This document shows positions 1,861 to 62,889 of a stretch of DNA of 64,000 bases, one piece after another (position 1 is the stretch's first letter; each line of letters begins with the position of its first letter). The notes beneath the pieces were generated by a model. It ran no database searches. It was not told the origin of the DNA and saw only the letters and a program-made list of their open reading frames with translations. The DNA comes from Lachnospiraceae bacterium (GTDB lineage Bacteria > Bacillota > Clostridia > Lachnospirales > Lachnospiraceae): positions 1 to 64,000 of the forward strand of contig JAFSTN010000014.1 of NCBI GenBank assembly GCA_017450485.1, read 5' to 3'. The translations under genes were made by a program, and so were the position numbers.

Positions 1861-1949
1861 AATCGGTCTCCTTATAGATAGATTAACGTCATGGGTGCAT
1901 TTCCATATATCCATTATAAACCGAAGAATGATTATGTGGTCTTAGGATT

Positions 1950-2081: not shown

Positions 2082-2103
2082 TACAGAGGATCAGAGACGC
2101 TAC

Positions 2104-2268: not shown

Positions 2269-2304
2269 ATCAGCTATACGGGAAAAATCCCCTTGCGTAA
2301 TATA

Positions 2305-2335: not shown

Positions 2336-2359
2336 GCATGGCGAAAGGAGGTGAAAGCT

Positions 2360-2475: not shown

Positions 2476-2633
2476 AAGAGCTTGAGAATATCGTTATAGG
2501 TAAAAGCAGCATTCCGGCGCTGGTCATCACTGTCGTCCTGATGATCGCGATCCCTGTTGTGTTCTTCATATACTGGCGAGTGAAGCATAGAGAGCAGACC
2601 GGGATCAGCTGGCTGATCGCCGGTGCTGTCGGT
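2472..2633 (+). pseudogene. YhfC-type membrane protein, N-terminal remnant
   Basis: The first 54 residues from ATG 2472 (MKELENIVIG, one membrane segment ending PVVFFIYWRVKHRE, then SWLIAGAVG) resemble the N-terminus of YhfC-family membrane proteins, which in clostridia often sit just after a MerR gene of the type remaining upstream. At about 2634 the frame passes without a stop into an unrelated LysR-type segment, giving a 113-codon chimeric reading frame ending at 2813. The remaining YhfC membrane helices are lost. Confidence 0.5.
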
Positions 2634-2884
2634 TCACATAAGACCATCAGTGAAGAAGATCTGAGGGAGGTGCCGCTTCTGCTGACCGGGCATGAATGTA
2701 ATTTCCGCCATATGCTGGTCACTGATCTTGAGGAAAACGGTATTTCGCCGAAAATCGTGCTGGAAACGAGCAGCAAGGAGATACTGAAGCAATTTGCGGC
2801 GGGTGGCTACTGAACAAAGCGATCAACGGTCTGGTTGATATTATAAAACGCGATGAACACAGTGATCCGGATGTCCTGCAGTAA
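2634..2884 (+). pseudogene. LysR-type regulator, substrate-domain remnant
   Basis: Residues following the YhfC segment (VPLLLTGHECNFRHML, then PKIVLETSSKEILKQFAAGG) read as the middle of a LysR effector-binding domain. A stop at 2811-2813 interrupts it. In a neighbouring frame the sequence continues as a plausible C-terminus (LNKAINGLVDIIKRD, stop at 2882-2884). The helix-turn-helix half is absent, so this is the 3' remnant of a gene fused by deletion to the YhfC start. Confidence 0.45.
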
Positions 2885-2965
2885 TACCGGATCGACATGC
2901 AGGAGAGCCTGTTTAGACTATAAGCAGAACGTCGAGTGTCGAAATACCGAAAGGAGATGACCGCT

Positions 2966-3760
2966 ATGATAATAACAGACAGCCGTATAGATGCCGGAAA
3001 GGCCTTTGACTGGGGACGAACCTCAGAGGAATATGCCAAATACAGGGATATATATCCGGAAGAATTCTATAAAAGGATCGTGGACAGAGGGCTCTGCAAG
3101 GATGGGCAGAAGGTCCTTGATCTCGGGACCGGTACGGGTGTGCTGCCGCGTAATATGTACCTGTATGGCGCTGAATGGACGGGGACTGATATTTCTCCCG
3201 AACAGATAGAGCAGGCGAAGCGGCTGGCGGCTGAAGCCGGAATGAATATCTGTTTTTATGCGGTACCTGCCGAGGAGATCGACTTTCCGACAGGCAGCTT
3301 TGATGTGATCACGGCCTGTCAGTGCTTCTGGTATTTTGATCATGAGCGGGTCATGCCGAAACTCGCAGAGCTCCTTAAGCCCAATGGGAAGCTTCTGATC
3401 CTGTATATGGCATGGCTTCCGTATGAAGACCGGATCGCAGGCGCCAGTGAGGAAATAGTTCTCAGATACAGTCCCAAGTGGTCGGGTGCGGGAGAAAGGC
3501 GGCATCCGATCCACATCCCGGATGTGGCATACGATTATTTTGAACTTGAAGATCATGAGGAATATGATCTCATGGTACCTTTTACCAGAGAATCCTGGCA
3601 CGGAAGAATGAAAGCAAGCCGTGGCGTGGGTGCATCCTTGACCGGAGATGAACTCGCCAAATGGGATAAAGAGCACAGGAAACTTCTGGAAGAAATCGCA
3701 CCGGATCAATTTGAGGTTCTGCATTATGCTGCTCTTGCCGAACTGAAGAAGAAATTTTGA
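2966..3760 (+). CDS. class I SAM-dependent methyltransferase
   Basis: A 264-residue Rossmann-fold methyltransferase. Motif I VLDLGTGTGVLPR (glycine-rich SAM loop) lies near residue 52, TGTDISPEQIEQA supplies the acidic ribose-binding residue, and FDVITACQCFWYFDHE is motif IV. The C-terminal half is a variable substrate domain. It resembles UbiE/Methyltransf_11 family proteins common in clostridia; the acceptor is unknown. The frame extends upstream to 2936, but AAGGAG at 2951-2956 places the start at ATG 2966. It follows the remnant cluster and is separated by 19 bp from the next gene, with which it may be co-transcribed. Confidence 0.85.
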   Translation: MIITDSRIDAGKAFDWGRTSEEYAKYRDIYPEEFYKRIVDRGLCKDGQKVLDLGTGTGVLPRNMYLYGAEWTGTDISPEQIEQAKRLAAEAGMNICFYAVPAEEIDFPTGSFDVITACQCFWYFDHERVMPKLAELLKPNGKLLILYMAWLPYEDRIAGASEEIVLRYSPKWSGAGERRHPIHIPDVAYDYFELEDHEEYDLMVPFTRESWHGRMKASRGVGASLTGDELAKWDKEHRKLLEEIAPDQFEVLHYAALAELKKKF

Positions 3761-3779
3761 CTGGTTCCCCGTAAGGGAT

Positions 3780-4460
3780 ATGGGTGCGTGGATAAATACA
3801 ACAGCAATGGAGAATAGTCATAAGAATTTATTTATGAAAACCAGAGATGAAGCATTAAAATATGGCCTTTCTTTTCCTGACACATATCAGGATGCACCGT
3901 TTCATGATCCAAACTGGCAGCTGGTAAGATTCGCCGGGAATAAGAAGGCATTTCTGTGGACTTATGAGATGGATGGGCACATCTGTCTGAATGTCAAGGT
4001 CGATCCGGAGAAAGCATATTACTGGCGTCAGATATACAGATCGGTCATCCCCGGATATCATCAAAACAAAGAGCACTGGAATACGATCATACTTGACGGT
4101 TCCGTACCCGATAAGGATGTGAAACTCATGATCGCCGAGAGCTATGATCTTATCAGCGACTGCCCTTCAAAGAGGATATATGAAGCGGTAAAGCAGATAC
4201 CGTATGGGCGTGTGGCCACTTATTCCCAGGTAGCAGAGATCGCGGGAGACAGGAAGATGGCCCGTGCGGTCGGTAATGCTCTCCACAAGAACCCCGATCC
4301 CGACAACATTCCGTGCTTCCGTGTGGTGAATGCCAAAGGAGAACTTGCCGGCGAATTTGCTTTCGGCGGCCCGGGAGCACAGGCAAAACTGCTGGAAGCC
4401 GAAGGGATCACGGTTGTGGATGGGAAGGTTGACCTTGATATTTATCAGTGGAGAAAGTGA
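3780..4460 (+). CDS. MmcQ/YjbR domain fused to O6-alkylguanine-DNA alkyltransferase-like domain
   Basis: A 226-residue two-domain protein. Residues ~15-120 form an MmcQ/YjbR (DUF419, CyaY-like) domain (FPDTYQDAPFHDPNWQLVR, HICLNVKVDPEKA). Residues ~125-220 form the DNA-binding and active-site domain of methylated-DNA-cysteine methyltransferase: IPYGRVATYSQVAE, ARAVGNALHKNP, then the acceptor motif IPCFRVV and the GGPGAQAKLLEAEGI tail. The acceptor Cys is present, but the usual His of PCHRV is Phe. The fusion is known in clostridia and presumably repairs or senses alkylated guanine. The start at 3780 has a weak GGGAT nearby; ATG 3810 is an alternative. Gene ends 26 bp from the convergent histidine kinase. 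Confidence 0.85.
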   Translation: MGAWINTTAMENSHKNLFMKTRDEALKYGLSFPDTYQDAPFHDPNWQLVRFAGNKKAFLWTYEMDGHICLNVKVDPEKAYYWRQIYRSVIPGYHQNKEHWNTIILDGSVPDKDVKLMIAESYDLISDCPSKRIYEAVKQIPYGRVATYSQVAEIAGDRKMARAVGNALHKNPDPDNIPCFRVVNAKGELAGEFAFGGPGAQAKLLEAEGITVVDGKVDLDIYQWRK

Positions 4461-4486
4461 TAAGCTCGCATGATGAGATGAATACC

Positions 4487-6568
4487 TCATGAAGATCCGA
4501 GAATCTCTCCGAGGATGACCTTAAGAGCCCGGTAGTCTGTAAGCAGATCCGGCATGTTTTCCGCGATCAGGGCGGTATCGCCTGCCTTGGCAGCCAGTTC
4601 AACAGCCTTTGCCTTTTCCGAAAGAGCACCTGCGCCGATAGCTGCGGATGTACTCTTTAATGAGTGCACGTTTATAGCCAGATTTTCGAGATCCCCGTTT
4701 TTGCAGTTATCCTCGATCTGCCCGGCTTTTGCATCAATAGACGATTCAAAGGTCTCCATGGCGAATAGGTATTCTTCGGCATCGCCGCAGTATTCGATCC
4801 CCTTAACGGGATCGATCTCGGGATGATCAAATATAACATCCGGAAGCTTTGAAATCTCATCGTCCTCGTCATCATCGTCATCATTGTCGTTATTCAGGAT
4901 CACGGAGTCCTGTGGAAGATACTTGATCATCATTCGTTCCATTTCATCGATATTAACCGGTTTTGAGAGATAATCTGTAAACCCGGCTCTCATCATTTTT
5001 TCCTTGTCACCGGCCACTGCACTGGCAGTAAGCGATATGACCGGTGTTTTCTCGAATTTCTCCGGATAATTCTTTTTTAGTATCTCCAGAGTCTCGATAC
5101 CGTTCATCTGGGGCATTCTGTAATCAAGGAAGACCAGATCGTAGTGTTCGCTGCCGAACTTCTGAATGCACTCTGCTCCGCTGGTTGCAACGGCTATATG
5201 CATTCCGGTCCTTTTAAGCAGTCCGGAGACAACCTGCAGGTTCATCGGGGTGTCGTCTACGATAAGGAGGCTTAAGCCCGGAGCGGTAAAAAGCGAATGC
5301 TTGCGCCGGATATGATCCGGTTCGTTCAAATGCGGATCGGGAGTAAACTCACCCACCGGATTCCAGTCTGATACTTTCTGGGTCAGGACAAAAGAAAATC
5401 TTGATCCGTTTTCATACCTGCTTTCCACATTAAGCTCACTGTCCATTATTGAAAGCAGTTGTCTGGTAATGGCCAGTCCGAGCCCGGTTCCTTCGATGGT
5501 TCGGGTCTTTTTTAGATCCAACCTGTCAAAAGGTTCAAACAGGCGCTCCATGTCTTCCTGTCTGATGCCTATGCCGGTATCTGTAACTGAAACCTCATAG
5601 TTCACGGAGTCTTCAGACCGGTCTTTAAGCCTGATCTCGAAGTCTACGGATCCCTTCTCGGTATATTTAACGGCATTGGTCAGCAGGTTGGTGATGATCT
5701 GTTTTACCCTGATCTCGTCTCCGAGCAGATGGCAGGGTAGATCGGGATCCACTTTGAAGTTTAGTGCCAGACCTTTGGCCTCTGCGCGAAACTGTACCAG
5801 ATTATAGAGATCCATGATAAGAGATTTGAGTGAATACTCCTCATTCTCCAGAGTCATCTTTCCTGTCTCTATCTTGGAGAAATCAAGTATATCGCTGATT
5901 ATTCCCAGCAGGCTGACGCCGGCTTTTCTTATGTTTTCGGAGTATTCAAGTATCGTTGAGCTGTCGGTCTCCCTCTGTATCATTTCGTTCATTCCGAGGA
6001 TGGCTGTGATGGGAGTCCGTATCTCATGACTCATATTTGAGAGAAAAGCGCTCTTGGCAATGTTGGCCTGTTCTGCCTGCTCCAGTGCATAGGCGAGGTT
6101 CCTGGCTCTTTCCTTTTCCTCTTCGGCCAGCTTGTTCTCGGTGATATCCTCGATGAAAACGTAGTAAACTTCCCCGTAGCCCGGGAGAGTAGCGAAGTGC
6201 CCGTAGTCATCCACCCATCTGATGGAACCGTCCTTGCGGATGATGCGGTATACGACATAATCGATGTGCCGTCTGTTGGAGGGCAGGGATATCTGTTCGT
6301 CTATGGAATTCTGGATCTTCTCATAATCCTCGGGATGCACCATGCCCTTGAAGTTATTGCCTGTCAGTTCACGGAATTCATTCACGGTCTCACATCCGTA
6401 GATATCGCATGTGGACTGGTTGACATACAGGAGCTCCATGGTCTCGTCCGCCCGGTAGATAAAAAATCCTCCCGGCATCTGCTCTGCCAGCCATTCGGCT
6501 GCCGACATCCCTTCTTTGGAAGGAATGGTAGACATTATTTCATCGCTTATCAGTCGGTTTCTCTGCAT
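4487..6568 (-). CDS. PAS-domain hybrid histidine kinase with receiver and Hpt domains
   Basis: A 693-residue soluble hybrid kinase. Order: PAS with PAC (residues ~25-150, including [20 protein letters not shown]), a short coiled linker, HisKA with MSHEIRTP (His181), HATPase (~290-410, TDTGIGI and EGTGLGLAI boxes), receiver (~435-560, VDDTPMN, phospho-acceptor Asp482 in [21 protein letters not shown]), an Asp-rich linker, and an Hpt domain with His635 in VHSLKST. It would run a His-Asp-His phosphorelay; the final receiver is not encoded nearby. No membrane segment is visible, so it probably senses a cytoplasmic or diffusible signal through PAS. It is the only large - strand gene here, preceded by GAGG before the ATG at 6568 and by an extended -10 promoter. 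Confidence 0.93.
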
Positions 6569-6606
6569 CTTTTTACCTCTCGGTGCGTTGCTCTTCTGTT
6601 TTTTTT

Positions 6607-6615
6607 AGTATAGCA
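6607..6615 (-). promoter_or_regulatory. extended -10 promoter for the hybrid kinase
   Basis: On the - strand the sequence TGCTATACT is an extended -10 element (TGn plus TATACT), about 39 bp before the kinase ATG at 6568. No good -35 is seen, as is usual for extended -10 promoters. Confidence 0.45.
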
Positions 6616-6692
6616 TATAACTGATGCGATAGTTGTGGTCGATACGACGTTGGGAAAGTATAAAGCCATTAAGCGGACCGGTTGTGTGGATC

Positions 6693-7463
6693 ATGGATAC
6701 TAAGATAATCTGTATAAACTGCGGGGCCGAAATAGAAAAAGACAGCACAAGATGTCCATATTGCGGCTATATCAACGTAGAAGGTGCCGAGAAGAAGTTC
6801 CTAAGCGACCTCGATGAGATCGACAGGAATATCAAAGAGACGAAGAAGGAGCCTGTAAAAGCACTGGCGAAGGGCTTCACCGGCGGAACGAAGACGATAC
6901 TTATCACGGTCACGGTTCTTTTGATAATAGCCATCCTGATAGCGGTGGAACTGTTCAGGGAGACAAGGGATGAGCCTAAGCTCTTTATGTCCGCAGATGA
7001 GCAGGCCTACGCTTCGGCATATGTAGAACAGGCCGGTGAACAGCTGACTGAGGCATTTGAGGACGAAGATATAGCCCGGATGGCGGATATTTTTGACACG
7101 GCTTATTCCCGGGACAGGGTTTCGCTCTGGGGAGTGGATCATTATGAGGCGGGGTACGCATCGAGCTGCTATATGAAGCTGCAGCAGTGCCTGCCGAACC
7201 TTGATAAAGAAGAGATGTCCGTTAAGGAAGCTGAGGAGATTACATACTATTGCTTCTATTTCTACTACAGGGCATATGGTGATGACGGCGCAGATCTTTT
7301 CGATCCGATAAGGGATGATCTGGTCCTGCCGGTGATCACGGAGAGACTGGGGTTTTCGGTTGAGGATATGGAGAACTTCAGGAAGCGGGTATGTGATCCG
7401 CCGCATGTAAACAGGTCCAGGGTATATAAAGCCACTAAAAAGTATTATAAGGATTATAAGTGA
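6693..7463 (+). CDS. zinc-ribbon membrane protein, function unknown
   Basis: A 256-residue protein with an N-terminal zinc ribbon (CINCG ... CPYCG, residues ~6-25), a charged linker, one membrane helix at ~residues 69-89 (TILITVTVLLIIAILIAVEL) and an extracytoplasmic domain of ~165 residues of unknown fold with many aromatic and acidic residues. The frame is open upstream to 6633, but ATG 6693 puts the zinc ribbon at the N-terminus as in similar proteins. It is the first of three consecutive genes with the same ribbon/helix/outer-domain plan, suggesting a family duplicated in place and working at the membrane. Function not recognised. Confidence 0.75.
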   Translation: MDTKIICINCGAEIEKDSTRCPYCGYINVEGAEKKFLSDLDEIDRNIKETKKEPVKALAKGFTGGTKTILITVTVLLIIAILIAVELFRETRDEPKLFMSADEQAYASAYVEQAGEQLTEAFEDEDIARMADIFDTAYSRDRVSLWGVDHYEAGYASSCYMKLQQCLPNLDKEEMSVKEAEEITYYCFYFYYRAYGDDGADLFDPIRDDLVLPVITERLGFSVEDMENFRKRVCDPPHVNRSRVYKATKKYYKDYK

Positions 7464-7506
7464 GTGCCGTGTCGGGTGCAGGGTATTGAAGGTGTGAGGG
7501 ATCTGA

Positions 7507-8313
7507 ATGAAGTGCCGATATTGCGGAAGCAATCTGGGATTTGAAGACGAATATTGTCCTTATTGTGGGAAACTGAATGATCAGGCTGCCGGACATCAGG
7601 CGGTGATGAAAGAGTACCGTAATGAGTATGAGAACACCGTGGCCGATGTGAAGGTAAAGTCGAGAAAGGCCGGTCGGACCGGCAGGCTGATAGTCATCGG
7701 CCTGATGCTTGCCGCCATTGTCGCGATGCTGATCAGCATCCGCATTAATTCTGACTTCGAACGCATCGATCAGAAAGAAAACGAACGGATAGTCAGGGAA
7801 GTCGACAATAACCTGGACGGTGTGAAAGCCCAACTGGACGAAATGGAAAAAAACCGCGATTATCTGGCATTGGATTATTACAACCTCAATTATCGTCTGA
7901 GAAGTGACAGCAGATTCGACGATTATTCCCGGGTGTTTACGGCCGCGATCAGTTATAAGGTTGTACATGATGATATCCTGAATATCATGTCCGGCTTCGG
8001 GGGATATGACGAAAAGACCAATAAGGACTGGTGCTATGATGCCGCGATCTATATCAGCGACTGGAACCGTTTCGCCGGAGGTGAATTCTGGTCCGATGCT
8101 GCCGATTCACCGATGCATGCGGGTGAGCACGGAGCATTTCTCACCGACATCAAAAAAGACACACAGGATATGGTACAGGTGTATTTTGCCCTGACTGATG
8201 AACAGGCATCTGCAATCTGGGAGATGGACAGGGATGCTCTGGGTGAGATGCTGTATGCGAATTGCGTAAGACTCTATTCGGAAGAACAGGCAGGTGAGCC
8301 GAGTGAGGAATAG
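7507..8313 (+). CDS. zinc-ribbon membrane protein, function unknown
   Basis: A 268-residue protein starting directly with a zinc ribbon (MKCRYCGSN ... CPYCGK), then a basic linker, one membrane helix near residues 60-80 (LIVIGLMLAAIVAMLISI) and an outer domain of about 185 residues. The plan matches the preceding gene, and the outer domains share the pattern of Tyr/Trp-rich helices, so they are probably paralogues. Start at ATG 7507 is preceded by GTGTGAGGGATCTGA, giving an acceptable GAGGG ribosome binding site. The gene overlaps the next by 20 bp. Function not recognised. Confidence 0.75.
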   Translation: MKCRYCGSNLGFEDEYCPYCGKLNDQAAGHQAVMKEYRNEYENTVADVKVKSRKAGRTGRLIVIGLMLAAIVAMLISIRINSDFERIDQKENERIVREVDNNLDGVKAQLDEMEKNRDYLALDYYNLNYRLRSDSRFDDYSRVFTAAISYKVVHDDILNIMSGFGGYDEKTNKDWCYDAAIYISDWNRFAGGEFWSDAADSPMHAGEHGAFLTDIKKDTQDMVQVYFALTDEQASAIWEMDRDALGEMLYANCVRLYSEEQAGEPSEE

Positions 8314-8725
8314 GAAGGAAAGAAAGCCTAAAGATCCTGTGATCATAGCACTGGATGTGACAATTGTCATACTCATGATCGCGATGATCTTTGTGGGGGA
8401 GAAGGCCGTAATATATAAGCTCGTGGTGGACAGTAACGCTTCTTTTGCTCAGGATGCGTCCATGATGTCCTTTGAACTGCAGCGCGGAGATTATGCCGGC
8501 CTCATACAGGATAAATATATGAATGAGTTTAACGGGAATACGAAGCCCGGCGCTTATAATTCTTTGGCGGATTATGTGGAAGCATCTTTTCTGTATAAGA
8601 TATACGATACCAAAGGGTATACGGACAGAGCGAATAAGCAGAAGAATGCCTGTGATGAGGCCCGCGCAAACATGAGCAAGCTCGGGGTCTTCGCCGATAA
8701 GATCGACAAAATGTTTGCCAAATGA
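8294..8725 (+). CDS. single-pass membrane protein, function unknown
   Basis: A 143-residue protein with a very basic N-terminus (VRNRKERKPKD), one membrane helix at ~residues 15-38 (IIALDVTIVILMIAMIFVG) and an outer domain of ~100 residues. It resembles the two upstream proteins but has no zinc ribbon. The start is GTG, at 8294 or possibly 8303, inside the end of the previous gene, so translation is probably coupled. The stop codon TGA at 8723-8725 is the first three bases of a REP-like repeat, so the natural C-terminus may have been trimmed by the repeat insertion. Confidence 0.65.
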   Translation: MSRVRNRKERKPKDPVIIALDVTIVILMIAMIFVGEKAVIYKLVVDSNASFAQDASMMSFELQRGDYAGLIQDKYMNEFNGNTKPGAYNSLADYVEASFLYKIYDTKGYTDRANKQKNACDEARANMSKLGVFADKIDKMFAK

Positions 8726-8751
8726 CCCCCGGGGACGGAGTCAGAGGGTCA
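8723..8751 (+). repeat. REP-like palindromic repeat, copy A
   Basis: A 29-bp element beginning TGACCCCCGGGGACGGAG and ending TCAGAGGGTCA; the outer hexamers TGACCC and GGGTCA are inverted repeats. It is identical base for base to copy B at 9842-9870 and differs at two positions from the reverse complement of copies C and D. It supplies the stop codon of the upstream gene. Read as protein it gives the nonsense peptide MTPGDGVRG. Confidence 0.9.
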
Positions 8752-8769
8752 TTTTTTGACGAGGAAAAG

Positions 8770-9291
8770 ATGGTAATAATTATAACAGGCGCATCCCATG
8801 TTGGAAAAACTGTTCTGGCACAACGGATGCTTGAAAAATACAAATATCCGTATTGTTCAATTGACCATTTGAAGATGGGGCTTATTCGCAGTGGCATAAC
8901 GACTCTCACACCGGAAGATGACGATGATCTGACAGATTATCTTTGGCCAATAGTTCGAGAGATGATAAAGACTGCTATTGAGAATAAGCAAAACCTTATT
9001 GTTGAGGGTTGTTATATTCCTTTTGATTGGAGAAACAGTTTTGATGAGCATTATCTTCAGTCGATAAGATTCATCTGTCTTGCAATGTCTGATGAATATA
9101 TAAGTTCGCATTTTGGAGAGATTAAATCACATGGTTCTGACATTGAAAGAAGACTCGATGATTCTTATTGTACAGATGAACAACTGAAACAAGACAATCA
9201 CCGGATTATAAATGGCTACAAGTCTTATGGAGAAAAGATTACTTTGATTACAGAAAGCTATGAGGATTCGATAAGAGGCTTTTTGGATTAA
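8770..9291 (+). CDS. P-loop NTPase, nucleotide or small-molecule kinase-like
   Basis: A 173-residue P-loop protein. The Walker A loop GASHVGKT lies at residues ~7-14 right after the first beta strand (VIIIT), followed by a helix and CSIDHLKMG, a position that often binds substrate in adenylate-kinase-like folds. LIVEGCYIPFDW could hold the second acidic strand. An Arg/Asp-rich lid (IERRLDD) follows. It looks like the AAA/zeta-toxin/shikimate-kinase group of small kinases, but the substrate is unknown. ATG 8770 is preceded by GAGGAAAAG, so the in-frame upstream part that runs through the REP-like repeat is not coding. The gene is clearly more AT-rich than its neighbours and lies between two identical direct repeats, suggesting recent acquisition. 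Confidence 0.7.
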   Translation: MVIIITGASHVGKTVLAQRMLEKYKYPYCSIDHLKMGLIRSGITTLTPEDDDDLTDYLWPIVREMIKTAIENKQNLIVEGCYIPFDWRNSFDEHYLQSIRFICLAMSDEYISSHFGEIKSHGSDIERRLDDSYCTDEQLKQDNHRIINGYKSYGEKITLITESYEDSIRGFLD

Positions 9292-9351
9292 CAGATTCAA
9301 GTTTGAACATATAGAGGCACTTTTGTAAAAAGGGACTTTTTTGATAACGTT

Positions 9352-38435: not shown

Positions 38436-40598
38436 ATGCGGAAAAAGATCCTTACGGTAATAATCGATATCATCGGAATACTGATAACCATAGTCTGCGG
38501 ACTGCTGCTGATACAGATGATATTTATGCAGAGAGATCTCGTCTCTTCCTCACAACAGGCGGGTGAACTGATCGAGAATACTTCCGAGGAAGCAATGCGC
38601 TCCCAGATAGGGGCATATCTGAAGGAGGCGGCTTCCATCAGAGCATGGGTTTCGGACGGGGAGTTCTCCAAGTTTGCCGATTCCATCGGAGTGATCGCGG
38701 ACACTGCATCGGACATATATGCTCATCCGGAGAGATATGGCACATCCCGGATGGAGAAATACGGCGAGTCCGATATGGGGGAGCTTAAGTCTTATATCGC
38801 ATACGGTGACGGAGTGGACCCCGAAGCGGCGGATATCAGTGCGGAAGCCGGTATGGCAGCCAATATGCAGGGAGTGCTCAAGTCTGTCAATATGGCCAAC
38901 AGTTCTATGGCCAGTGATTATTTTGCATCCGAATCCGGTCTGTTCGTATGTGCAGAGGCTGTATCTGTCTACAATCTTCCAAATGGGAATGAGCATCTGA
39001 GCTTCGAGGCGAGACAGCGTCCCTGGTATACGGAGGCAAAGGATTCCGGACAAGCGGTTTTCACGGGGATCATCAAGGATGCCGATACCGGTGATTATGT
39101 CATCACATGCGGAGTGCCTGTGTATGCTGACGGTGATTTTGTCGGTGTGGCCGGAGCCGGACTTTTCCTGGATACCATCCGTCAGGATGTAGACGGATTT
39201 CAATTGGGGGAGAACGGTTATGCCTGCATAGTCAATTCACAGGGGCAGGTTCTTTTCTCGGGAGCAGCTGAAGGCGATCTGAGTGCTTCGGAGGATATGG
39301 ATTCGGATATCAGGAATAGCGCCAATACGGAACTGGCAGGACTGGCCACCGATGCACTTGACGGAAATGCCGGCGTGGATATCGTGAATCTGGACGGAAG
39401 CAGATATTACATCGGCTATGCTCCGATGGAGACGGTAGGCTGGTCATATATGACTATTCTTCCCGAAGCGGAAGTTACGGCTCCAACCAGGGCTCTCGTT
39501 GAGAAGCTGGATGCTCATAATACCGAGCAGAATGAATATGTTCACAGATCCGTGATCAAATCCGTCAGATTCATAGTGCTCCTTCTGGTGGCTGTCGGCG
39601 GTATCATGCTGATCGTAGCCGGCAGGTTTGCGGATAAACTGGCGGATCCGATAGTCCTGCTGACAGGACAGGTGAGCCAGATCGAGGGTGATAACCTGGA
39701 TTTCACCTCTGATCTGCGTACTGGCGATGAAGTGCAGGTCCTGGGCGAGGCGTTTGAATCCATGACCGGGCGCATGAAAACGTACATCGATGATATCACT
39801 GCGATCACGGCCGAGAAGGAGAGGATAGGAGCGGAGCTTTCTGTCGCAAAACACATACAGGCGTCCATGCTTCCGTGCATCTTTCCCGCTTATCCGGACA
39901 GAGGGGAGTTCGAACTGTATGCATCCATGGATCCGGCCAAGGAAGTTGGCGGGGATTTCTATGATTTCTTTCTGATCGATCATGATCATCTGGGAATAGT
40001 CATAGCCGATGTTTCGGGAAAGGGCGTGCCTGCTGCGCTGTTCATGGTCATAGCGAAGACTCTGATCAAGAACAGGGCATTATCCGGAGAGAGGGTGGAT
40101 GAGGTATTTACTCATGCCAACAACCAGCTCTGCGAGGGCAATGCCGAGGATATGTTCGTTACGGCCTGGATCGGGATCATAGAGCTGTCGACCGGACATA
40201 TGCAGTGGTGTGATGCCGGACATGAGATCCCGTATCTCATACATGGCGACGGAAGTATTGAGAAGATCAAGCCGGAGAGGAAGAAACTCCCTCTGGCGGC
40301 TATCGAGGACACGCAGTATGTGGCCAACGAGCTTGATCTGAACAGGGGAGACATGATCTTTCTGTACACTGACGGCGTACCGGAAGCATGTGATAAGAAT
40401 GATGAACTGTATGGGATCAGGAGACTTGAGACTGCTCTGGGCATGGAATACAGGGCTGATCCCGAGACTCTGTTAAGGGCAGTCAGATCTGATGTGGACA
40501 GCTTTGTAGGAGAAGCATCACAGTTTGATGATCTGACCATGCTCTGCTTACAATACAGGGGAAACGGCCGCGATCAGGTCCGGGATTCCAAAGTATAG
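38436..40598 (+). CDS. Cache-HAMP-SpoIIE-type PP2C phosphatase
   Basis: A 720-residue membrane phosphatase: membrane helix (~7-30), a long outer dCache domain (~40-365, containing RQRPWYTEAKDSGQ, FVGVAGAGLFLDTI and YYIGYAPMETVGWSYM), a second helix (~378-400), HAMP (~402-455) and a PP2C domain of the SpoIIE/RsbU kind (~475-710). Its metal-site motifs are MDPAKEVGGDFYDFF, IVIADVSGKGVPAALFM, WCDAGHE, LYTDGVPEA and QFDDLTML. Relatives dephosphorylate anti-sigma-factor antagonists with STAS domains; none is encoded nearby. Probably heads an operon of unknown and regulatory genes up to 46460. Confidence 0.92.
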   Translation: MRKKILTVIIDIIGILITIVCGLLLIQMIFMQRDLVSSSQQAGELIENTSEEAMRSQIGAYLKEAASIRAWVSDGEFSKFADSIGVIADTASDIYAHPERYGTSRMEKYGESDMGELKSYIAYGDGVDPEAADISAEAGMAANMQGVLKSVNMANSSMASDYFASESGLFVCAEAVSVYNLPNGNEHLSFEARQRPWYTEAKDSGQAVFTGIIKDADTGDYVITCGVPVYADGDFVGVAGAGLFLDTIRQDVDGFQLGENGYACIVNSQGQVLFSGAAEGDLSASEDMDSDIRNSANTELAGLATDALDGNAGVDIVNLDGSRYYIGYAPMETVGWSYMTILPEAEVTAPTRALVEKLDAHNTEQNEYVHRSVIKSVRFIVLLLVAVGGIMLIVAGRFADKLADPIVLLTGQVSQIEGDNLDFTSDLRTGDEVQVLGEAFESMTGRMKTYIDDITAITAEKERIGAELSVAKHIQASMLPCIFPAYPDRGEFELYASMDPAKEVGGDFYDFFLIDHDHLGIVIADVSGKGVPAALFMVIAKTLIKNRALSGERVDEVFTHANNQLCEGNAEDMFVTAWIGIIELSTGHMQWCDAGHEIPYLIHGDGSIEKIKPERKKLPLAAIEDTQYVANELDLNRGDMIFLYTDGVPEACDKNDELYGIRRLETALGMEYRADPETLLRAVRSDVDSFVGEASQFDDLTMLCLQYRGNGRDQVRDSKV

Positions 40599-40609: not shown

Positions 40610-41131
40610 ATGGCTTTAGTGGGTAATGCAAAGGACATCAATGTCAGGGAGTTCTATGATGCGATAGTGGATTTCGCACATGATGAGAAGGCTCAGGATA
40701 AGTACTACAGCATCATGGACATGCTGACAGGCAGGAAGAACAGGGACGGCAGCGATGAGACCGTCAGAGACAGGATACTCAAGGCGTACGCCATGCTGTT
40801 TTGTGAGGATGCGGGCTTGGAACCCGGAGAGTGCGCGGGCGTGGATGAAGTGGCCGATACCGCAGACAGACTGTATATAGGCGGAACGGGATATGATCCC
40901 GAACACTGGTATCGCATGAAGTACCATTTCCCGGTGATAGATGATGATAATTATGACAGATTCGCTGCACTGGTGCTGAGTGACATGAACTCGGGACCGC
41001 TGCACGAGGCAGCTCTTAATGACGGAGAGACACTTGTAGTTGGTGAACCTGATCCGCTGCATATGACGCCTGAGCAGAGACGCAATCAGACGGTCAGGAG
41101 CGTAGGACTTCCTGCGGGAGGTGACCAATGA
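40610..41131 (+). CDS. unknown soluble protein of the signalling operon
   Basis: A 173-residue acidic, mainly helical protein with no recognised domain. Notable segments are NVREFYDAIVDFAHDEKAQDKYY near the N-terminus, a central DRLYIGGTGYDPEHWYRMKYHFP and a Gln/Arg-rich C-terminus. AGGAGG precedes ATG 40610. It lies between a PP2C phosphatase and the pseudo-receiver regulator, overlapping the latter by 4 bp, so it may be the phosphatase's substrate or an adaptor; that is inference from position alone. Confidence 0.7.
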   Translation: MALVGNAKDINVREFYDAIVDFAHDEKAQDKYYSIMDMLTGRKNRDGSDETVRDRILKAYAMLFCEDAGLEPGECAGVDEVADTADRLYIGGTGYDPEHWYRMKYHFPVIDDDNYDRFAALVLSDMNSGPLHEAALNDGETLVVGEPDPLHMTPEQRRNQTVRSVGLPAGGDQ

Positions 41132-41937
41132 ACATACTGGCAGTCGACAGCGATAAGAAGGCACTTGACGGTATCCGCAGCATACTGGGGAAACGCAGAC
41201 CCAAGGCAGCATGCTACTATTTCGAAGACCCTCTGGCTGCTCTGGCTCAGGCAAGAGAGACAGAGATAGATGTGGCCCTGCTGGAGGTGGACACGCCCGA
41301 GCTCTCGGGTCTGGATCTGGGCAGATATCTGAAGGAGCTTAACCCCTATGTCAATCTGATATATCTGAATGCGGGCGAAAGCTATGCATATGATGCCATC
41401 CGCCAGCATGCCAGCGGATATGTGGTGAAGCCCGGAGACGAGAATGATATACAGTATGAGCTGGATTCCCTGCGGTTTCCGGAGATACGCAAGAAACTCA
41501 AGAGAGTGTTTGCACAGACTTTCGGGAATTTCGAGTTCTTCGTGGACGGTGAACCCGTGGAGTTCAAATACAGCCGGACCAAGGAGATCGTCGCCATACT
41601 TATCAATAACAAGGGAGCCCAGACCACAAACGGCGAGATCATAGCCGACCTGTGGGAGGATGACGCTGACCCCGATAAGAAACTCTCATATCTGTGCAAC
41701 CTAAGACAGGATCTGCAGAATACATTCACCAGGCTCAAACTTGACGGGATCATACTGAAGCAGCGCGGAAGCATGGCCATAGCAAAGGACAGGATAGAGT
41801 GCGATCTCTATGACTGGATGGCAGATCCGGAGCACTCCAAATACAAGTATATAGGTGATTACATGAATCAGTACAGCTGGGCCGAGAGCGTGCATGCCGA
41901 GCTGGATGAGATCAGCTACGATCTGTATGATGAATAG
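41128..41937 (+). CDS. SARP-like response regulator with pseudo-receiver (Glu at the phospho site)
   Basis: A 269-residue regulator. Residues 1-120 are a receiver fold (ILAVDSDKKAL, VALLEVDTPELSGLDL, LIYLNAGES, GYVVKPGDEND). The phospho-acceptor Asp is Glu53, the acidic pair is reduced to Asp-Ser and the switch Thr is Asn; only the Lys is kept. Residues ~128-215 form an OmpR-type winged helix (FGNFEFFVDGEPVEFKYSR, RTKEIVAILINNKGA), followed by a short BTAD-like end (GDYMNQYSWAE). This is the SARP layout with a cut-down BTAD. It is paralogous to the regulator at 61966, which has an intact receiver. It probably acts without phosphorylation, controlled by partners or level. ATGA overlap with the previous gene. 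Confidence 0.88.
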   Translation: MNILAVDSDKKALDGIRSILGKRRPKAACYYFEDPLAALAQARETEIDVALLEVDTPELSGLDLGRYLKELNPYVNLIYLNAGESYAYDAIRQHASGYVVKPGDENDIQYELDSLRFPEIRKKLKRVFAQTFGNFEFFVDGEPVEFKYSRTKEIVAILINNKGAQTTNGEIIADLWEDDADPDKKLSYLCNLRQDLQNTFTRLKLDGIILKQRGSMAIAKDRIECDLYDWMADPEHSKYKYIGDYMNQYSWAESVHAELDEISYDLYDE

Positions 41938-46482: not shown

Positions 46483-46519
46483 CTGTGTGACAGAACTGTG
46501 ATACTTGCCGGTCTATAGT
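46483..46519 (+). promoter_or_regulatory. SARP-like operator/promoter 1 (11-bp heptamer repeats)
   Basis: TGTGACA at 46486-46492 and TGTGATA at 46497-46503 start exactly 11 bp apart, each preceded by C or CTG. TATAGT at 46514-46519, 5 of 6 -10 bases, follows the second heptamer after 10 bp. No -35 is present: the repeats occupy its place, as in activator-dependent SARP promoters. The same arrangement recurs at 62807-62843; over 40 aligned bases 24 are identical. It drives the GNAT-like gene and the 1064-residue protein. Confidence 0.6.
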
Positions 46520-46574
46520 ATGAACAGTAAAGCAGAGAAGAATTTTATAACACGTTAAAAACGGAGAGAGAAAA

Positions 46575-47402
46575 ATGAAAGTAAGAATGATAACCCCGAA
46601 AACGATGGATAAGTTTCAGTACCTGATAGCTCCTGAGGTATATGCCGACATGGAGGCCGGTCAGCCCGTGACTGCCATAGGTCTGGCTGAGGATAAGACT
46701 CCCATAGGAGCCGTAGCGGGAGTGATGGAGAACGAGTATGTATTCTCTGTCAGATCTCTGTATGTGGCACCCGATTACAGGAGACAGGGCGGAGCAACGA
46801 TGCTCATCACGGCACTGGAGCGTCTGCTGGACACTCGGGATGCACTGGCCTGCATATCGTTTCTGGAGGATGATACGGAGGATTCGCGTGCTCTTATCGC
46901 ATTTGTGGAGAGTCGGGACTGCGTTCTTGAGAACGGTCTTGAGAGACTCTATCGCGGAACGGTCGGAAGCTTCGTTGAGTCCGGACTTTTCTCCAAAGGG
47001 TTCAGGAGCAAGGACATACACAGTCTGGTTGATGTCGACAAGCCCATGATCGCCACCATCGGTAAAAGGATCCGCGCGGTCTCTAAGGAGCTTGGTGACA
47101 AGTATCTGAGCTCATTTAGGAATGACAGACGCCTTTCATTTGCAGCCCTGAAAAAAGAAGATCTGCAGGGAGTGCTTTTGACCGGATACATGCCGGCCTG
47201 TCCCGATGAGCCGCTGGTCGTCATGACATCCAGTCAGGATCCGCATATCATCGGCGGATTGCTCAGTACGTTTTTTAACTCATGCAGGTCAAAGTTCGGA
47301 GACACTACATATCTCAGATTCCCCGTGGTCGATGACCGATTCGACCGCATGATGGGACACATAGACGGAGTTACCAATATACAGCACAATTATCTGTTTT
47401 GA
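46575..47402 (+). CDS. GNAT-like acetyltransferase with C-terminal extension
   Basis: A 275-residue protein. The N-terminal ~130 residues show the GNAT fold (IGAVAGVMENEYVFSVRSLYVAPDYRRQGGATMLI, with the RRQGGA acetyl-CoA loop). The C-terminal 140 residues, with LLTGYMPACPDEPLVVMTS and a FFNSCRSKFG segment, look like a second degenerate GNAT half. GGAGAGAG precedes ATG 46575. It is the first gene after SARP-like operator 1 and is followed after 34 bp by the giant unknown protein, which it may modify. Confidence 0.75.
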   Translation: MKVRMITPKTMDKFQYLIAPEVYADMEAGQPVTAIGLAEDKTPIGAVAGVMENEYVFSVRSLYVAPDYRRQGGATMLITALERLLDTRDALACISFLEDDTEDSRALIAFVESRDCVLENGLERLYRGTVGSFVESGLFSKGFRSKDIHSLVDVDKPMIATIGKRIRAVSKELGDKYLSSFRNDRRLSFAALKKEDLQGVLLTGYMPACPDEPLVVMTSSQDPHIIGGLLSTFFNSCRSKFGDTTYLRFPVVDDRFDRMMGHIDGVTNIQHNYLF

Positions 47403-47436: not shown

Positions 47437-50400
47437 ATGGACGGCAAAAGCATATTCGAACAGGATCTTCTTAAGAAAGAAGTAAAAATGAACGAGGGGA
47501 TCCTGAACGTAGATAAAAAGGACGAGATGATCGGGCGGAATTCCTTCATGGATATCTCCGCAATAGACATGAAAGATGTCCAGGATCAGGATGACAGTTT
47601 CGATGATCTGATCATCAAAGACAATAAGGAGCTGGTTAAGACAGGAAAGATGCTTCTTAAGGAATTTGATGAAAAAGAGATCATAATGGGTGAGAGACTG
47701 TCCATCGAAAGCTTTAAGGACAGCCCTTTGGCCACATCAGCGACCAGACGGAGGAGATTCGGCGAATACCCCAGACTGATGGGCCAGGGACAGGTAGCAG
47801 CAGGTGATCTGCTGGGAAGAAATACATCCAAAGTGGTAAAGAGAGGCGGATTCGGCAATGATATGATCGCCAAGGGACAGGAGTTCGTCAGGAGGATCAA
47901 AAGCTGGGCTACCGCGAGTGACATACAGGATGCGATCCTGGGAGATTTCGTGCAGCAGTACGGTGTATCCGATATAATCGACTGCCTCTATGTGGACGGC
48001 ATGCCTATCAGGGAGTTCGTAGCGGGTAAATATGCATACAACGGATCAGAGGACAAGGCTCAGGAGCGAAATATCCTGAGTGCATATGCGGCTATGATCG
48101 CTTCCAGACGGAATCATCCCATAACCCTGGTACGTCCCGTGCTCATTAACGGTGTTGCCGATATTGATATCAGAAATGTCGGCGTGGATATGCGTATAGA
48201 TGGACATTATACGAGCCGCAGACAGAAAACCGATGCCATCAGATACGGTATAGAGGGAGACAGATACCGCGAGTACTGCGAGACAGCTTATCGCTCCGAT
48301 ATGAGAGCAAAAGCAGGCGAAGCTCTGCGTGCGGTAAAAGGCAAGACGGTAAACGGCTTAAGCAAACTGCAGGAGCTTAAGCGTAATCTGAACGCAGCCG
48401 GCAAGGGTAAACACAATAACTATGACAAGTTTGTGATGGCTTTCAACAGATATTTTGATGTTCTGCAGGATATAGGCAGGGATCCCGATCATATGGATAT
48501 CAACCGCAACGAACTGCAGATGATCTATGATCTGAACACAGCCGTGCTTAATGCAGCTCATGCTTATCTGAAGGGTAAGAAGATGAATCTGCCCAGACAC
48601 CATGCGGTCAAGGACATCAGTGATCTGATGTCGGCTCAATCCGGCACCATGTGGGGGCTGATCAGAGGTGAAAAACTGAATGCAGGTAACCCCACCGTAA
48701 ACCTTAAGGAGCTTCTGGATCCTGAAAAGGAAGGGTTTACGCTCGTGGGATTGTCGGATGAGATAGAAGATTATTCCATGGATCAGACCATTAACGGAAG
48801 CAATAACATTGAGTATGTAAAAGTTGATGACGAGGTGGAACTTGCGCTCGACCAGAAGAAGGCTATCAGGATACACAGAACCATATTCAGTGACGATACC
48901 ACTTTGAAAGCATATCAGAAGCTGGTTAACGGTCATAGTGACGACAATATGGATGTTTCATCCAGAATGGTGCTGGCCGGCACGTTCTTAAAGTCCGCAG
49001 CCAATACGCTGTACAATGATGAAAGATTCAGAAAAGAGATCAACAAAAGATATGCTTATGCCACTGATAACAAACAGTATCTCCTGTGCATGGTGGCCAG
49101 AGAACAGCTGACCAAGGTCCTCACCGCTGATTTCAGAAATTACCCCGAACTGCGTGATGCCATGGAGAGTTGGAATGAAGAGGTAGTAGCGCAGGAAGCG
49201 GATTACATGACATATAAGAGCAATGTTCTCGGAGATAAGGTTACAGCCGAGGAGTTCAAGAAGTACGGAGGATCAGTGCGTCACAGATATGTGACACCCG
49301 CCGAGGCGAATGAAGCGATCGCTTCCTCCAAGAATTACCTCTGTGTCAAGAAAGTTGAGGGCAAAAAAGGGATGTATGAACTTCGTCCGTCCATGCCCGA
49401 ATATGCAACACTTAACTTAAGCCAGCCGCTTGAGAAACCTATCCCTCTTCGTAAGACATTCAAGGCCGTATATAAGACGATAGCCAATATCATAATGGAC
49501 GAAAAGGGCAATATCAAAAACAACATAGGCCTGGTGAACGGCGAATCGGTCACCAGACGTATAGATGAGATGCTGATGGCTCTCCCGGAAACGAAAGCCG
49601 ATCTGAAAAGGGCCGGGGAGTGTGCCGAACTCATCATACGACCGGCCATGGAAAAGATGCTTGCTGCGGACTATAAGCGCCGGGGAACCAAAAACGCAAC
49701 GGCCAAAGCAAGAGAAGACGCCGAACAGATATGTCGTGATTTCATGACACTTGTGCAGGGTAACCGCGGACCGCTGGTGAGTTCTTTTGATGCAACATTC
49801 CATGATTTCAGACTCATGATGGATATGATCGCGAAGACCTCGGCGGATGATCTGATGAAAGAGCCCCGGATCCGTGATTATAAGATAGATGGCGTGGCTC
49901 CGACCCGTGCCGAAGTTGAGGAAGCATATAACGAGGTGAAAAAGGAATATGCCAGTGCCAGAGAAGACTTCCTGAAGCTCAGGAACATGGACCTGGATGA
50001 TGAAGAAGTACCCTGCATGAGCTCCTGTAATGAGCATAGCCGCGGCACACAGGTATTGATGCTGAGTCATACCGACAACGGTTCATATGACTCTGTCGCA
50101 TACAATCTGGCAGATAAGGCCAAGTCAAGCCCTGATGAGATCCTTGATTATATGGTCACCAATATGGAGATGATATTTGCGACCGGCTTCGGAGATGCCC
50201 GCACGGTTACCAAGCATCGCAAGAGACTGAATGAGCTGAATGAGAGCAAAAAGAAAAACGGACAGCTCACCAAGGAGGAAGTAAGCGATCTTAAGGGCAT
50301 ATTCCGGAACTACGTCAAGTATGACTATCACAGAGGCGCCAATATGGGTCAGTCAGGCAACGCACAGTATACGTCCGAAACGTTTGCCCTTGAACCCGAT

Positions 50401-50631
50401 CAGGTGATCCAGTCGCCGCTTACATTTAACGTATGCATCGGTAAATACAAGTCGGATCTGGACAAGCAGAATATAGACGATGAAGGCGGATTCATAGAGC
50501 ATGAGGGCATGAAGAAATTCTATGAACATGATAACGGACTGGAATACTGCAACTCCAGGAAGAAACTGATCAAGGGCATGATGAAGGATGTATTAAAGGT
50601 TAAGGTCAGCAATATCCGTGATCAGTATTGA
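47437..50631 (+). CDS. giant cytoplasmic protein (1064 aa), function unknown
   Basis: A 1064-residue hydrophilic, mainly helical protein with no signal sequence, membrane segment or recognised enzyme motif. The first 85 residues are highly charged (Lys/Asp/Glu); then RRRRFGEYPRLMGQGQ, a central helical region (NYDKFVMAFNRYFDVLQDIG) and a C-terminal region with a Cys pair in PCMSSCNEHSRGTQVLMLSH. The segment at ~335-405 shows the same spacing of aromatic, Asn and YL residues as residues ~75-150 of the large protein starting at 62890, so they may be distant relatives. AAGGAGGAG precedes ATG 47437. Controlled, I infer, by operator 1. Confidence 0.85.
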   Translation: MDGKSIFEQDLLKKEVKMNEGILNVDKKDEMIGRNSFMDISAIDMKDVQDQDDSFDDLIIKDNKELVKTGKMLLKEFDEKEIIMGERLSIESFKDSPLATSATRRRRFGEYPRLMGQGQVAAGDLLGRNTSKVVKRGGFGNDMIAKGQEFVRRIKSWATASDIQDAILGDFVQQYGVSDIIDCLYVDGMPIREFVAGKYAYNGSEDKAQERNILSAYAAMIASRRNHPITLVRPVLINGVADIDIRNVGVDMRIDGHYTSRRQKTDAIRYGIEGDRYREYCETAYRSDMRAKAGEALRAVKGKTVNGLSKLQELKRNLNAAGKGKHNNYDKFVMAFNRYFDVLQDIGRDPDHMDINRNELQMIYDLNTAVLNAAHAYLKGKKMNLPRHHAVKDISDLMSAQSGTMWGLIRGEKLNAGNPTVNLKELLDPEKEGFTLVGLSDEIEDYSMDQTINGSNNIEYVKVDDEVELALDQKKAIRIHRTIFSDDTTLKAYQKLVNGHSDDNMDVSSRMVLAGTFLKSAANTLYNDERFRKEINKRYAYATDNKQYLLCMVAREQLTKVLTADFRNYPELRDAMESWNEEVVAQEADYMTYKSNVLGDKVTAEEFKKYGGSVRHRYVTPAEANEAIASSKNYLCVKKVEGKKGMYELRPSMPEYATLNLSQPLEKPIPLRKTFKAVYKTIANIIMDEKGNIKNNIGLVNGESVTRRIDEMLMALPETKADLKRAGECAELIIRPAMEKMLAADYKRRGTKNATAKAREDAEQICRDFMTLVQGNRGPLVSSFDATFHDFRLMMDMIAKTSADDLMKEPRIRDYKIDGVAPTRAEVEEAYNEVKKEYASAREDFLKLRNMDLDDEEVPCMSSCNEHSRGTQVLMLSHTDNGSYDSVAYNLADKAKSSPDEILDYMVTNMEMIFATGFGDARTVTKHRKRLNELNESKKKNGQLTKEEVSDLKGIFRNYVKYDYHRGANMGQSGNAQYTSETFALEPDQVIQSPLTFNVCIGKYKSDLDKQNIDDEGGFIEHEGMKKFYEHDNGLEYCNSRKKLIKGMMKDVLKVKVSNIRDQY

Positions 50632-61931: not shown

Positions 61932-61965
61932 TGAACCCGGCGTTCCGTCATGGCAGAGGATGTAT

Positions 61966-62775
61966 ATGAAAGCTATTTGTGTGGATGATGCTGCACTGAT
62001 CCTGGATCATACGATGTCGCAGCTTAAGCAGATCAAAGTGATCAATGAAGTTCAGGGATTCACCAATCCGCTGGACGCGCTCGAATACGCACGCAACAAT
62101 CCTGTGGATATAGCGCTGCTCGATATAGACATGCCGGAGATGAACGGAATAGCTTTGGCTGCAAAACTGAAGAATGTTCAACCTTCATGCGCCGTCATAT
62201 TTCTGACGGCGTATGCCGAATATGCGGTTGAAGCTTTTGCACTTCATGCATCCGGATATCTGATGAAGCCGGTCAGCATAGAGCGACTCACCGAAGAGAT
62301 CGAGTACAGCGTTGCGGGTGCGCGCACACTGCCATCTGCCCATATTACGGTCAGGACTTTCGGTAACTTTGACATCATGGTGGATGGCGAGACCGTATCT
62401 TTCGGACGGTCCAAGGCGAAAGAACTCCTTGCCTATCTTGTGGACCGGAACGGTGCGAGCATTAAGCGCGTTGAAGCATTTTCGGTACTGTGGGAAGACG
62501 GTGAGTACGACTACTCGATGCAGAAGCAGCTTGATGTGATCATCAGGAGCCTGCGTTCCACTCTGAAGGATCACGGTATCGGCGATATATTCGAACTCAA
62601 GAAATCCACCATGCGTATACGCCCCGAGCTGATCGACTGTGATCTGTACAGATTCCTGGCCGGAGATACCGATGCGGTCAGCACCTACAGAGGCGAGTAT
62701 ATGAATCAGTATTCCTGGGCTACGCTGGGTGAGGCTGACTTAAGCAGGCGGTTCAATGAACTGATGGACGGATAA
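61966..62775 (+). CDS. SARP-like response regulator with intact receiver
   Basis: A 269-residue regulator, same length and layout as the one at 41128. Receiver (1-118): CVDDAAL, phospho-acceptor Asp53 in ALLDIDMPEMNG, Thr in IFLTAYAEYA, Lys in YLMKPVS. Winged helix (~125-212): TFGNFDIMVDGETVSFGRSK, KELLAYLVDRNGA, LWEDGEYDYSMQKQL. Short BTAD-like tail with RGEYMNQYSWA. AGAGG at proper distance marks ATG 61966 (ATG 61960 also in frame). It likely receives phosphate from the hybrid or LytS-type kinase and acts on operators 1 and 2; the second lies just beyond its own stop. Confidence 0.9.
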   Translation: MKAICVDDAALILDHTMSQLKQIKVINEVQGFTNPLDALEYARNNPVDIALLDIDMPEMNGIALAAKLKNVQPSCAVIFLTAYAEYAVEAFALHASGYLMKPVSIERLTEEIEYSVAGARTLPSAHITVRTFGNFDIMVDGETVSFGRSKAKELLAYLVDRNGASIKRVEAFSVLWEDGEYDYSMQKQLDVIIRSLRSTLKDHGIGDIFELKKSTMRIRPELIDCDLYRFLAGDTDAVSTYRGEYMNQYSWATLGEADLSRRFNELMDG

Positions 62776-62806
62776 ACTTAAGCGGATCGTCCCGGATCGA
62801 AGATGA

Positions 62807-62843
62807 CTGTGTGATACTTCTGTGATAAAAGATCCGTTAACAT
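62807..62843 (+). promoter_or_regulatory. SARP-like operator/promoter 2 (11-bp heptamer repeats)
   Basis: TGTGATA at 62810-62816 and again at 62821-62827, exactly 11 bp apart, followed after 10 bp by TAACAT (62838-62843), a 4-of-6 -10. Layout, heptamers and the TATG just after the -10 match operator 1. The start of the large unknown gene is 47 bp downstream. Confidence 0.6.
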
Positions 62844-62889
62844 ATGTGAAGTAATACAGGTACTGTGTTTTGCGACAAGGAGACAAATC

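Follow-up and report, generated by a model that had tools for sequence, protein, structure and literature searches.

Two direct-repeat sites in a Lachnospiraceae genomic island look like activator-dependent promoters of one response-regulator regulon

An island in the genome of a Lachnospiraceae bacterium (GenBank assembly GCA_017450485.1, contig JAFSTN010000014.1) contains two short sites of the same design, genes for very large proteins, and two paralogous response regulators, which we call RR1 and RR2. The question is whether these sites are promoters and, if so, which of the two regulators reads them. The window analysed here is the whole 64,000-nucleotide stretch at positions 1 to 64,000 of the contig, and its relevant features are listed in Table 1. 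By comparing the sites across genomes, we find that they look like activator-dependent promoters belonging to one regulon.

Table 1. Features of the window that bear on the two sites (all on the + strand)
Feature	Position	Strand	Remarks
PP2C/SpoIIE-type phosphatase gene (720 aa), 5' of p173-RR1	38436..40598	+	domain name from sequence reading alone
p173, conserved gene directly 5' of RR1	40610..41131	+	no family match above cut-off
RR1, response regulator (receiver, winged helix, tail of about 64 residues; boundaries set by the authors)	41128..41937	+	most likely reader
RR1 box 1, heptamers TGTGACA and TGTGATA, spacer GAAC (TGTGACAGAACTGTGATA)	46486..46503	+	exact match; two heptamers, 11-bp period
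-10 element TATAGT of box 1	46514..46519	+	10 bp past second heptamer
GNAT-type acetyltransferase gene (275 aa), first behind box 1	46575..47402	+	Pfam Acetyltransf_1, E 2.7e-10
Giant protein 1 (1064 aa), second gene behind box 1	47437..50631	+	no family match above cut-off
RR2, response regulator paralogous to RR1	61960..62775	+	34% identical to RR1; probably TGTTGGA reader
RR1 box 2, heptamers TGTGATA and TGTGATA, spacer CTTC (TGTGATACTTCTGTGATA)	62810..62827	+	exact match; same in G005, absent in G006
-10 element TAACAT of box 2	62838..62843	+	10 bp past second heptamer
Giant protein 2, first 370 codons in the window; continues beyond it to 2442 aa	62890..64000	+	behind box 2

The promoter unit and its geometry

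An earlier note on this DNA had described the two sites, and its description was borne out in position, common design, exact 11-bp repeat unit and a -10 element starting 10 bp further on; 24 of the 40 bases in the aligned 40-bp frames are identical. The TATG that it added after the -10 element is not conserved in the wider set of sites and is the start codon of neither gene. The same note placed the sites in front of two large unknown proteins. This is directly so for site 2, but site 1 first precedes the GNAT gene and the 1064-aa protein comes second. Box 1 is kept upstream of the orthologous operon, GNAT plus a 1065-aa protein, in the congeneric genome G005. From the initiator position in the profile of 134 sites described below, transcription is predicted to start near 46526 for box 1; for box 2 the predicted start is near 62850.

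In the searches, the full promoter was defined as TGTGAYA-N4-TGTGAYA-N10-TAnnnT, the core as the heptamer pair without the -10 element, and the control as the reversed pattern. With up to two mismatches, the window alone held five sites against a mean of 1.83 in shuffled sequences, and 6 of 100 shuffles reached five. This count is not significant, and the case therefore rests on the whole genome and its relatives. A scan of the whole genome (2,622,484 bases in 49 contigs), which the earlier note had proposed as a check, gave four exact core matches, all with the -10 element at 10 bp, and none for the reversed core. A further site with one mismatch lies at C48:71151, and another has two mismatches. 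When the -10 element was included and up to two mismatches were allowed, the genome held six sites against one control.

A scan of named genomes found RR1 orthologues of 62-99% identity at at least 80 loci; the records carry the labels Butyrivibrio, Pseudobutyrivibrio, Lachnospiraceae and other Clostridia, and in a few cases other names. Across the 80 RR1 loci listed (1,350,397 bases), the heptamer pair occurred 48 times at a spacing of 4 and 0-8 times at each other spacing from 0 to 11, and the reversed control gave none. TAnnnT stood at exactly 10 bp for 47 of the 48 pairs and for none of the eight pairs at spacing 5. Fifty genomes were picked from the RR1 loci listed, and 45 had the full promoter (275 sites, median 5, controls 0); the other five, which also bear RR1, had no exact full match. 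The density of boxes near RR1 was about 20-fold that of whole RR1-bearing genomes, a comparison in which some RR1 loci are near-identical and the sites are not all independent.

We then have 134 distinct full sites from 57 genomes, with three of 30 loci from the 50-genome set not assigned to a genome. The earlier note had held that many hits inside genes, or repeats not conserved in relatives, would speak against its proposal. Seven of the 134 sites lay inside ORFs longer than 120 aa, and the repeats are kept in related genomes. For 116 sites a same-strand ORF, called by a longest-ORF heuristic, starts within 500 bp (median 57 bp past the -10 element), and for 18 there is no ORF of at least 60 aa within 500 bp. 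By construction, neither the heptamers nor TAnnnT can vary in this profile. Conservation extends to positions that the search left free: a G at -1 before the first heptamer (100/134), a TG one base before the -10 element, giving the extended form TGnTAnnnT (95/134), W-W-S in the spacer (T/A at two positions), and a pyrimidine-purine pair, the initiator, 6-7 bases after the -10 element. With this purine as the predicted +1, 40 bp after the first T of the box, the 11-bp units would cover -40 to -30 and -29 to -19, with their centre at -29.5.

RR1 as the candidate reader

The boxes follow RR1 within the genus. Among its seven genomes, RR1 is present at 99-100% identity in G000, G005 and G006, with 4, 7 and 4 core matches, respectively; G001-G004 are without RR1 (best matches about 30-33%) and have 0, 1, 0 and 0. 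TAnnnT is found at 10 bp for 14 of the 15 core matches in the RR1-bearing genomes, the exception being TATATC in G006 (L043), and the single core match of G002 has no -10 element.

The same was seen in a family sample of 299 genomes. A relative of RR1 at E 1e-30 was found in 89, and RR1 at 57% identity or more in four (own genome 100, G198 70, G158 68, G125 57; the next is 42%). The core alone matches in 58 genomes, the full promoter in seven: the own genome with 4 sites, G198 with 7, G158 with 11, G125 with 1, G140 with 2, G086 with 1 and G016 with 1. The full promoter is present in 4/4 genomes with RR1 at 57% or more versus 3/295 others (Fisher P = 1e-7, or 5e-6 without the own genome, both uncorrected for kinship). 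This co-occurrence is not independent, because the RR1-bearing genomes are related. G140, G086 and G016 hold their one or two full sites without a close RR1, and one core match of G198 (L103) is without TAnnnT at 10 bp. Among 40 core matches tabulated from other genomes, which are part of all matches and count at least one site twice (L077 and L113), four had the -10 element: two in G140, one in G086 and one in G125, the genome of the 57% orthologue. The distance to the -10 element is what separates real sites from background. Gene runs headed by a box include p173 in six genomes, and RR1 itself is among the first three genes in three. What comparative genomics shows is a box of rigid geometry that co-occurs with RR1 and lies close to it, and on these grounds RR1 is most likely the reader of both boxes.

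The presence of RR1 does not always go with a box. In Butyrivibrio sp. AE3009 giant proteins adjoin p173-RR1, and their surroundings gave no RR1 box (L155 on both strands, up to two mismatches with the -10 element; L296 on the coding strand). There, one contiguous stretch (L296, L155) encodes an AAA protein, a secreted-looking protein, giants of 2542 and 923 aa, a homologue of the 216-aa protein, p173 and RR1. Its AAA protein is 79% identical to the one on C21, and the stretch joins loci that the window's genome has on different contigs. Giant 2 of G006, where RR1 is present, also has no box. When L303 (G006:C1) is compared with window positions 62776-62850, about 75 bp found in G000 and G005, including the RR1 box, are absent. 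Therefore, the promoter appears to have been gained or lost as a block.

We consider it very probable that both sites are activator-dependent promoters and belong to one RR1 regulon. A pair of RR1 molecules would bind side by side on the two 11-bp repeats and take the place of a -35 element. Bound RR1 would then recruit the housekeeping RNA polymerase, presumably by contacting sigma, and the polymerase would melt a -10 element, usually of the extended form, at the fixed 10 bp. RR1 binding, activation and the sigma contact are steps that we infer. In the window's genus RR1 would work without aspartate phosphorylation, perhaps via p173 and neighbouring PP2C-type phosphatases. RR2-type paralogues would use the same layout with the heptamer TGTTGGA.

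Pfam finds a receiver domain in 45/45 RR1 orthologues. The phosphoacceptor site is Asp in 31 and another residue in 14 (Glu 8, Ser 4, Arg 1, Ala 1); RR1 of the window has Glu at this position, residue 53, and Ser at the second acidic position. Because Asp is missing in 14 of 45 orthologues, control by phosphotransfer cannot be general. Mean majority identity over the 45 sequences is 0.90 in the winged helix, 0.84 in the tail and 0.65 in the receiver, and the recognition-helix region, SYL-NLRQDLQNT, is nearly invariant across genera. The winged helix itself is a weak match to Trans_reg_C, which is found in 45/45 orthologues at E up to 1 with a best E of 0.0011; RR1 of the window scores 14.7 bits against a cut-off of 26.2. 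With a profile that includes paralogues, the best PDB match is EmbR (E 0.011), and AfsR is at 0.61. The AlphaFold model is good for the receiver (block pLDDT 74-96 over residues 1-120) and poor for the remainder (31-69).

The gene p173 may encode the real sensor or a partner of RR1. It stands directly 5' of RR1 in 80/80 loci listed, with a gap of 1-199 bp in 63 and ending where RR1 starts in 17. Relatives of the island's 720-aa phosphatase-type protein occur in 22 of these 80 loci. Control of RR1 via p173 or via PP2C/STAS partner switching is our guess from the gene neighbourhood.

A different reader has to be considered. A classical OmpR/PhoB-type regulator encoded elsewhere, for example a phosphate regulator, could read the boxes with RR1 merely co-distributed. 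The E. coli Pho box, CTGTCAT-N4-CTGTCAT at 10 bp from the -10 element, has the same geometry; the winged helix of RR1 is of the same superfamily (Trans_reg_C), and the targets include a few phosphatase-like proteins (HAD, PAP2, inositol phosphatase). However, no phosphate-transport gene occurs among the annotated targets, which are part of all targets; the density of boxes is about 20-fold higher at RR1, and p173 or RR1 is found in runs that a box heads; and 292 of the 299 family genomes lack the full promoter but would be expected to keep a PhoB. We regard such a reader as unlikely. RR1 does share with OmpR/PhoB-type regulators the receiver and winged helix, and its boxes share with the Pho box the tandem repeats of 11-bp period beside a -10 element. 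It differs from them in its heptamer TGTGAYA, in a winged helix that in RR1 of the window is well below the Pfam cut-off, and in the Asp missing in the genus.

A second heptamer and re-spelled promoters

The earlier note had both regulators of the island activating the giant-protein genes. For RR1, which tracks the boxes, this agrees with our results. That RR2 also binds the same two sites might be expected from paralogues of 34% identity in one island, with box 2 directly behind RR2. However, RR2 orthologues are present in all seven genomes of the genus (72-100%), including G001-G004 (72-79%), and RR2 is an unlikely reader of TGTGAYA boxes because these congeners are without TGTGAYA promoters. 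Furthermore, the neighbourhoods of RR2-type genes hold nine exact TGTTGGA pairs versus one TGTGAYA pair, and the recognition regions of RR1 and RR2 differ. Relatives of RR2 accompany the other heptamer, and binding of both regulators to the two sites is, in our judgement, very unlikely.

The TGTTGGA word obeys similar rules. In 2.86 Mb of partly overlapping loci there were 14 TGTTGGA pairs, all at spacing 4 (spacings 0-10 tried), and 11 of them had the -10 element at 10 bp; with up to two mismatches and the -10 element, 15 sites were found versus 2 in the control. The nine pairs near RR2-type genes come from 225 kb in G001-G004, G006, G086 and G140. All have spacing 4 (spacings 2-7 tried, none reversed), and four of them are already among the 14. 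TAnnnT is present at 10 bp in four of the nine, the others having TTAGAT (2), TTATAT (2) and CATTCT. With five of nine pairs lacking TAnnnT, the -10 rule looks looser than for RR1. The one exact TGTGAYA pair in these 225 kb has no -10 element. Within the 80 RR1 loci listed, exact TGTTGGA boxes occur in L210 and L214 alone; only L146, which has no TGTTGGA box, holds a closer RR2 relative than these two loci. RR2-type regulators probably read TGTTGGA, as their proximity and their different recognition region suggest.

Several promoters of the genus appear in both words. The gene for the 976-aa protein has TGTTGGA-N4-TGTTGGA-N10-TAnnnT within 600 bp upstream in G002 and G004, and no TGTGAYA box in the same interval (best four mismatches). 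G003 has a one-mismatch TGTTGGA version, G000, G005 and G006 have both boxes in tandem, and G001 has neither directly upstream. In G004, TGTTGGA boxes head a 121-aa receiver-like ORF with the GNAT_w orthologue (63%) behind it, a run of GNAT, giant 1 (38%), GNAT and a relative of the 3130-aa protein, and a run of the 216-aa (71%) and 1167-aa (45%) proteins; in G002 such a box stands before the 302-aa lipoprotein (49%). The 216-aa run of G000 and G006 is headed by a one-mismatch RR1 box instead. Giant 2 of G001 and G004 has no TGTGAYA box, which is expected where RR1 is absent, but also no TGTTGGA box directly upstream in the stretches seen.

On C21 (minus strand, L007:10675-10738) the RR1 box of the 976-aa gene lies, by reading, in a terminator-like hairpin, and the TGTTGGA box follows in tandem. 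The hairpin arms differ between genomes, AAAACCGTGT/ACACGGTTTT in G000 and AATGCTGT/ACAGCATT in G005, with the heptamers kept (L050, L041). This site, C21:15720, was considered as a chance match, being by reading a perfect hairpin followed by T's, and this was ruled out by the -10 element at exactly 10 bp. The box was accepted because of that -10 element, because it is kept in G005 and G006, and because relatives of the 976-aa protein are boxed in six genomes.

In several operons of one genus, then, the RR1 word is used where RR1 exists and TGTTGGA where it is absent, with the geometry kept and one promoter carrying both. There is about an even chance that rumen Lachnospiraceae have a set of receiver-winged-helix activators with one layout and a private heptamer for each paralogue, and that a regulon was handed over by re-spelling while the RR1 receiver was losing phosphorylation control. 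Repeats that are alike by chance or shared ancestry and have no function would agree with the two-mismatch count in the window, but are extremely unlikely given the whole- and multi-genome counts, the near-zero controls, the fixed spacing and the fixed -10 distance.

The regulon and related systems

In the window's genome, a 302-aa lipoprotein-like gene comes after the 2442-aa giant 2 gene. The one-mismatch box at C48:71151, outside the window, heads a run encoding 216-aa and 1167-aa proteins, two GNAT-type proteins and a 2103-aa protein; one of the two GNAT-type proteins is below Pfam detection. A GNAT (282 aa) and a 3130-aa protein are encoded behind the box at C31:8904, and a 976-aa secreted protein with InlB-type repeats behind that at C21:15720. 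On contig C48 a box is present at every run holding a giant protein. C31 and C21 were selected for reading because they bear boxes, and a statement that all giant operons are boxed would come from a biased sample; further giants may lie in the rest of the genome.

The giants scanned had no family match above cut-off in Pfam and NCBIfam, five giants or giant parts had no PHROG match, and homology among the giants themselves was unconvincing (best E 0.033). The C-terminal part of the 2103-aa giant (L006:30-3503, C48:80030-83503) reached 24.6 bits with Pfam Ntox11, whose cut-off is 25. A Cys-Trp-Ala stretch in the 2103-aa and 3130-aa giants is, we presume, reminiscent of papain-like peptidases. 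An origin from contractile injection systems or phages was considered for the giants and found no support: Pfam gave no tail or sheath protein among 20 window ORFs at 7.5-33 kb and five beyond 41 kb, and PHROG gave no match. Giant 2 is rare, being found in 7 of 60 genomes searched. A box-headed operon of G005 (L055, G005:C23, positions 817-9309), which encodes a 617-aa protein, gave only matches to MORN repeats, OEP and, weakly, YabP, and no known system was recognised in it.

The earlier note's regulon does include the giant-protein genes, yet it is much wider than these. Families that recur among the first three genes behind boxes include lipoproteins of variable length (13 genomes), an RsbW-type-ATPase-like family (9 genomes; the likeness is by reading alone, and Pfam gave no match for one member), STAS-like proteins (8 genomes), relatives of the 976-aa secreted protein (6 genomes) and relatives of the 302-aa lipoprotein (6 genomes). 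Pfam matches in 38 sampled first targets were PepSY (3), InlB-type repeats (2), HATPase_c_2 (1) and STAS (1). A hydrophobic N-terminus was scored in 30/38 first targets versus 178/526 background ORFs, in a crude test with a simple hydrophobicity score, near-identical pairs among the 38 and a background partly from different genomes. In the Butyrivibrio, Pseudobutyrivibrio and related genomes sampled, the targets are mainly exported or membrane proteins and partner-switch-type proteins, with p173-RR1 in some. Small proteins with Gly-Gly leader-like N-termini (VTGG, IQGG, VSGG) are encoded behind or near RR1- and RR2-type boxes in the L102 region, L223 and L338.

The earlier note called the sites and regulators SARP-like. 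For the promoter geometry this is apt: PMC10936776 describes SARP/AfsR promoters with two 11-bp direct repeats over the -35 region and a fixed -10 distance, and the register it gives for the AfsR box is that of the RR1 box, with the repeat centre at -29.5. The 8-bp distance given there is not reproduced when heptamers are counted, which gives 10 bp at RR1 boxes. From these likenesses RR1 would work like a SARP at the promoter. For the protein the term does not clearly apply. BTAD was absent among the 17 Pfam families matched by the 45 RR1 orthologues at E up to 1, a search in which HMMER filters lose most matches above 0.1; a remote BTAD remnant is possible after the winged helix, where the AlphaFold model is poor. 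Unlike SARPs, RR1 has a receiver domain and only about 64 residues past the winged helix, and the annotated targets of its boxes are not antibiotic clusters. Its host belongs to the Bacillota, whereas SARPs are said in PMC10972967 to occur exclusively in actinobacteria.

RR1 also resembles the aspartate-less or pseudo-receiver regulators such as ChxR (PMC4395418, PMC3960148), which bind DNA and have a receiver without phosphoacceptor. It differs from these in that the loss of Asp is patchy within one orthologous group (31/45 keep Asp) and the promoter code is constant.

In the open-access literature searched, no regulon of this kind is described for this group of rumen bacteria. Our results would provide the group with a predictive promoter code tied to one named regulator, and bring otherwise unannotated giant proteins under one switch. 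Because the paralogues seem to share geometry and differ in words, with one promoter carrying both, regulon rewiring could become directly testable. If our reading is true, SARP-type promoter architecture is not confined to Actinobacteria and here serves a regulator that does not have the usual activation domain.
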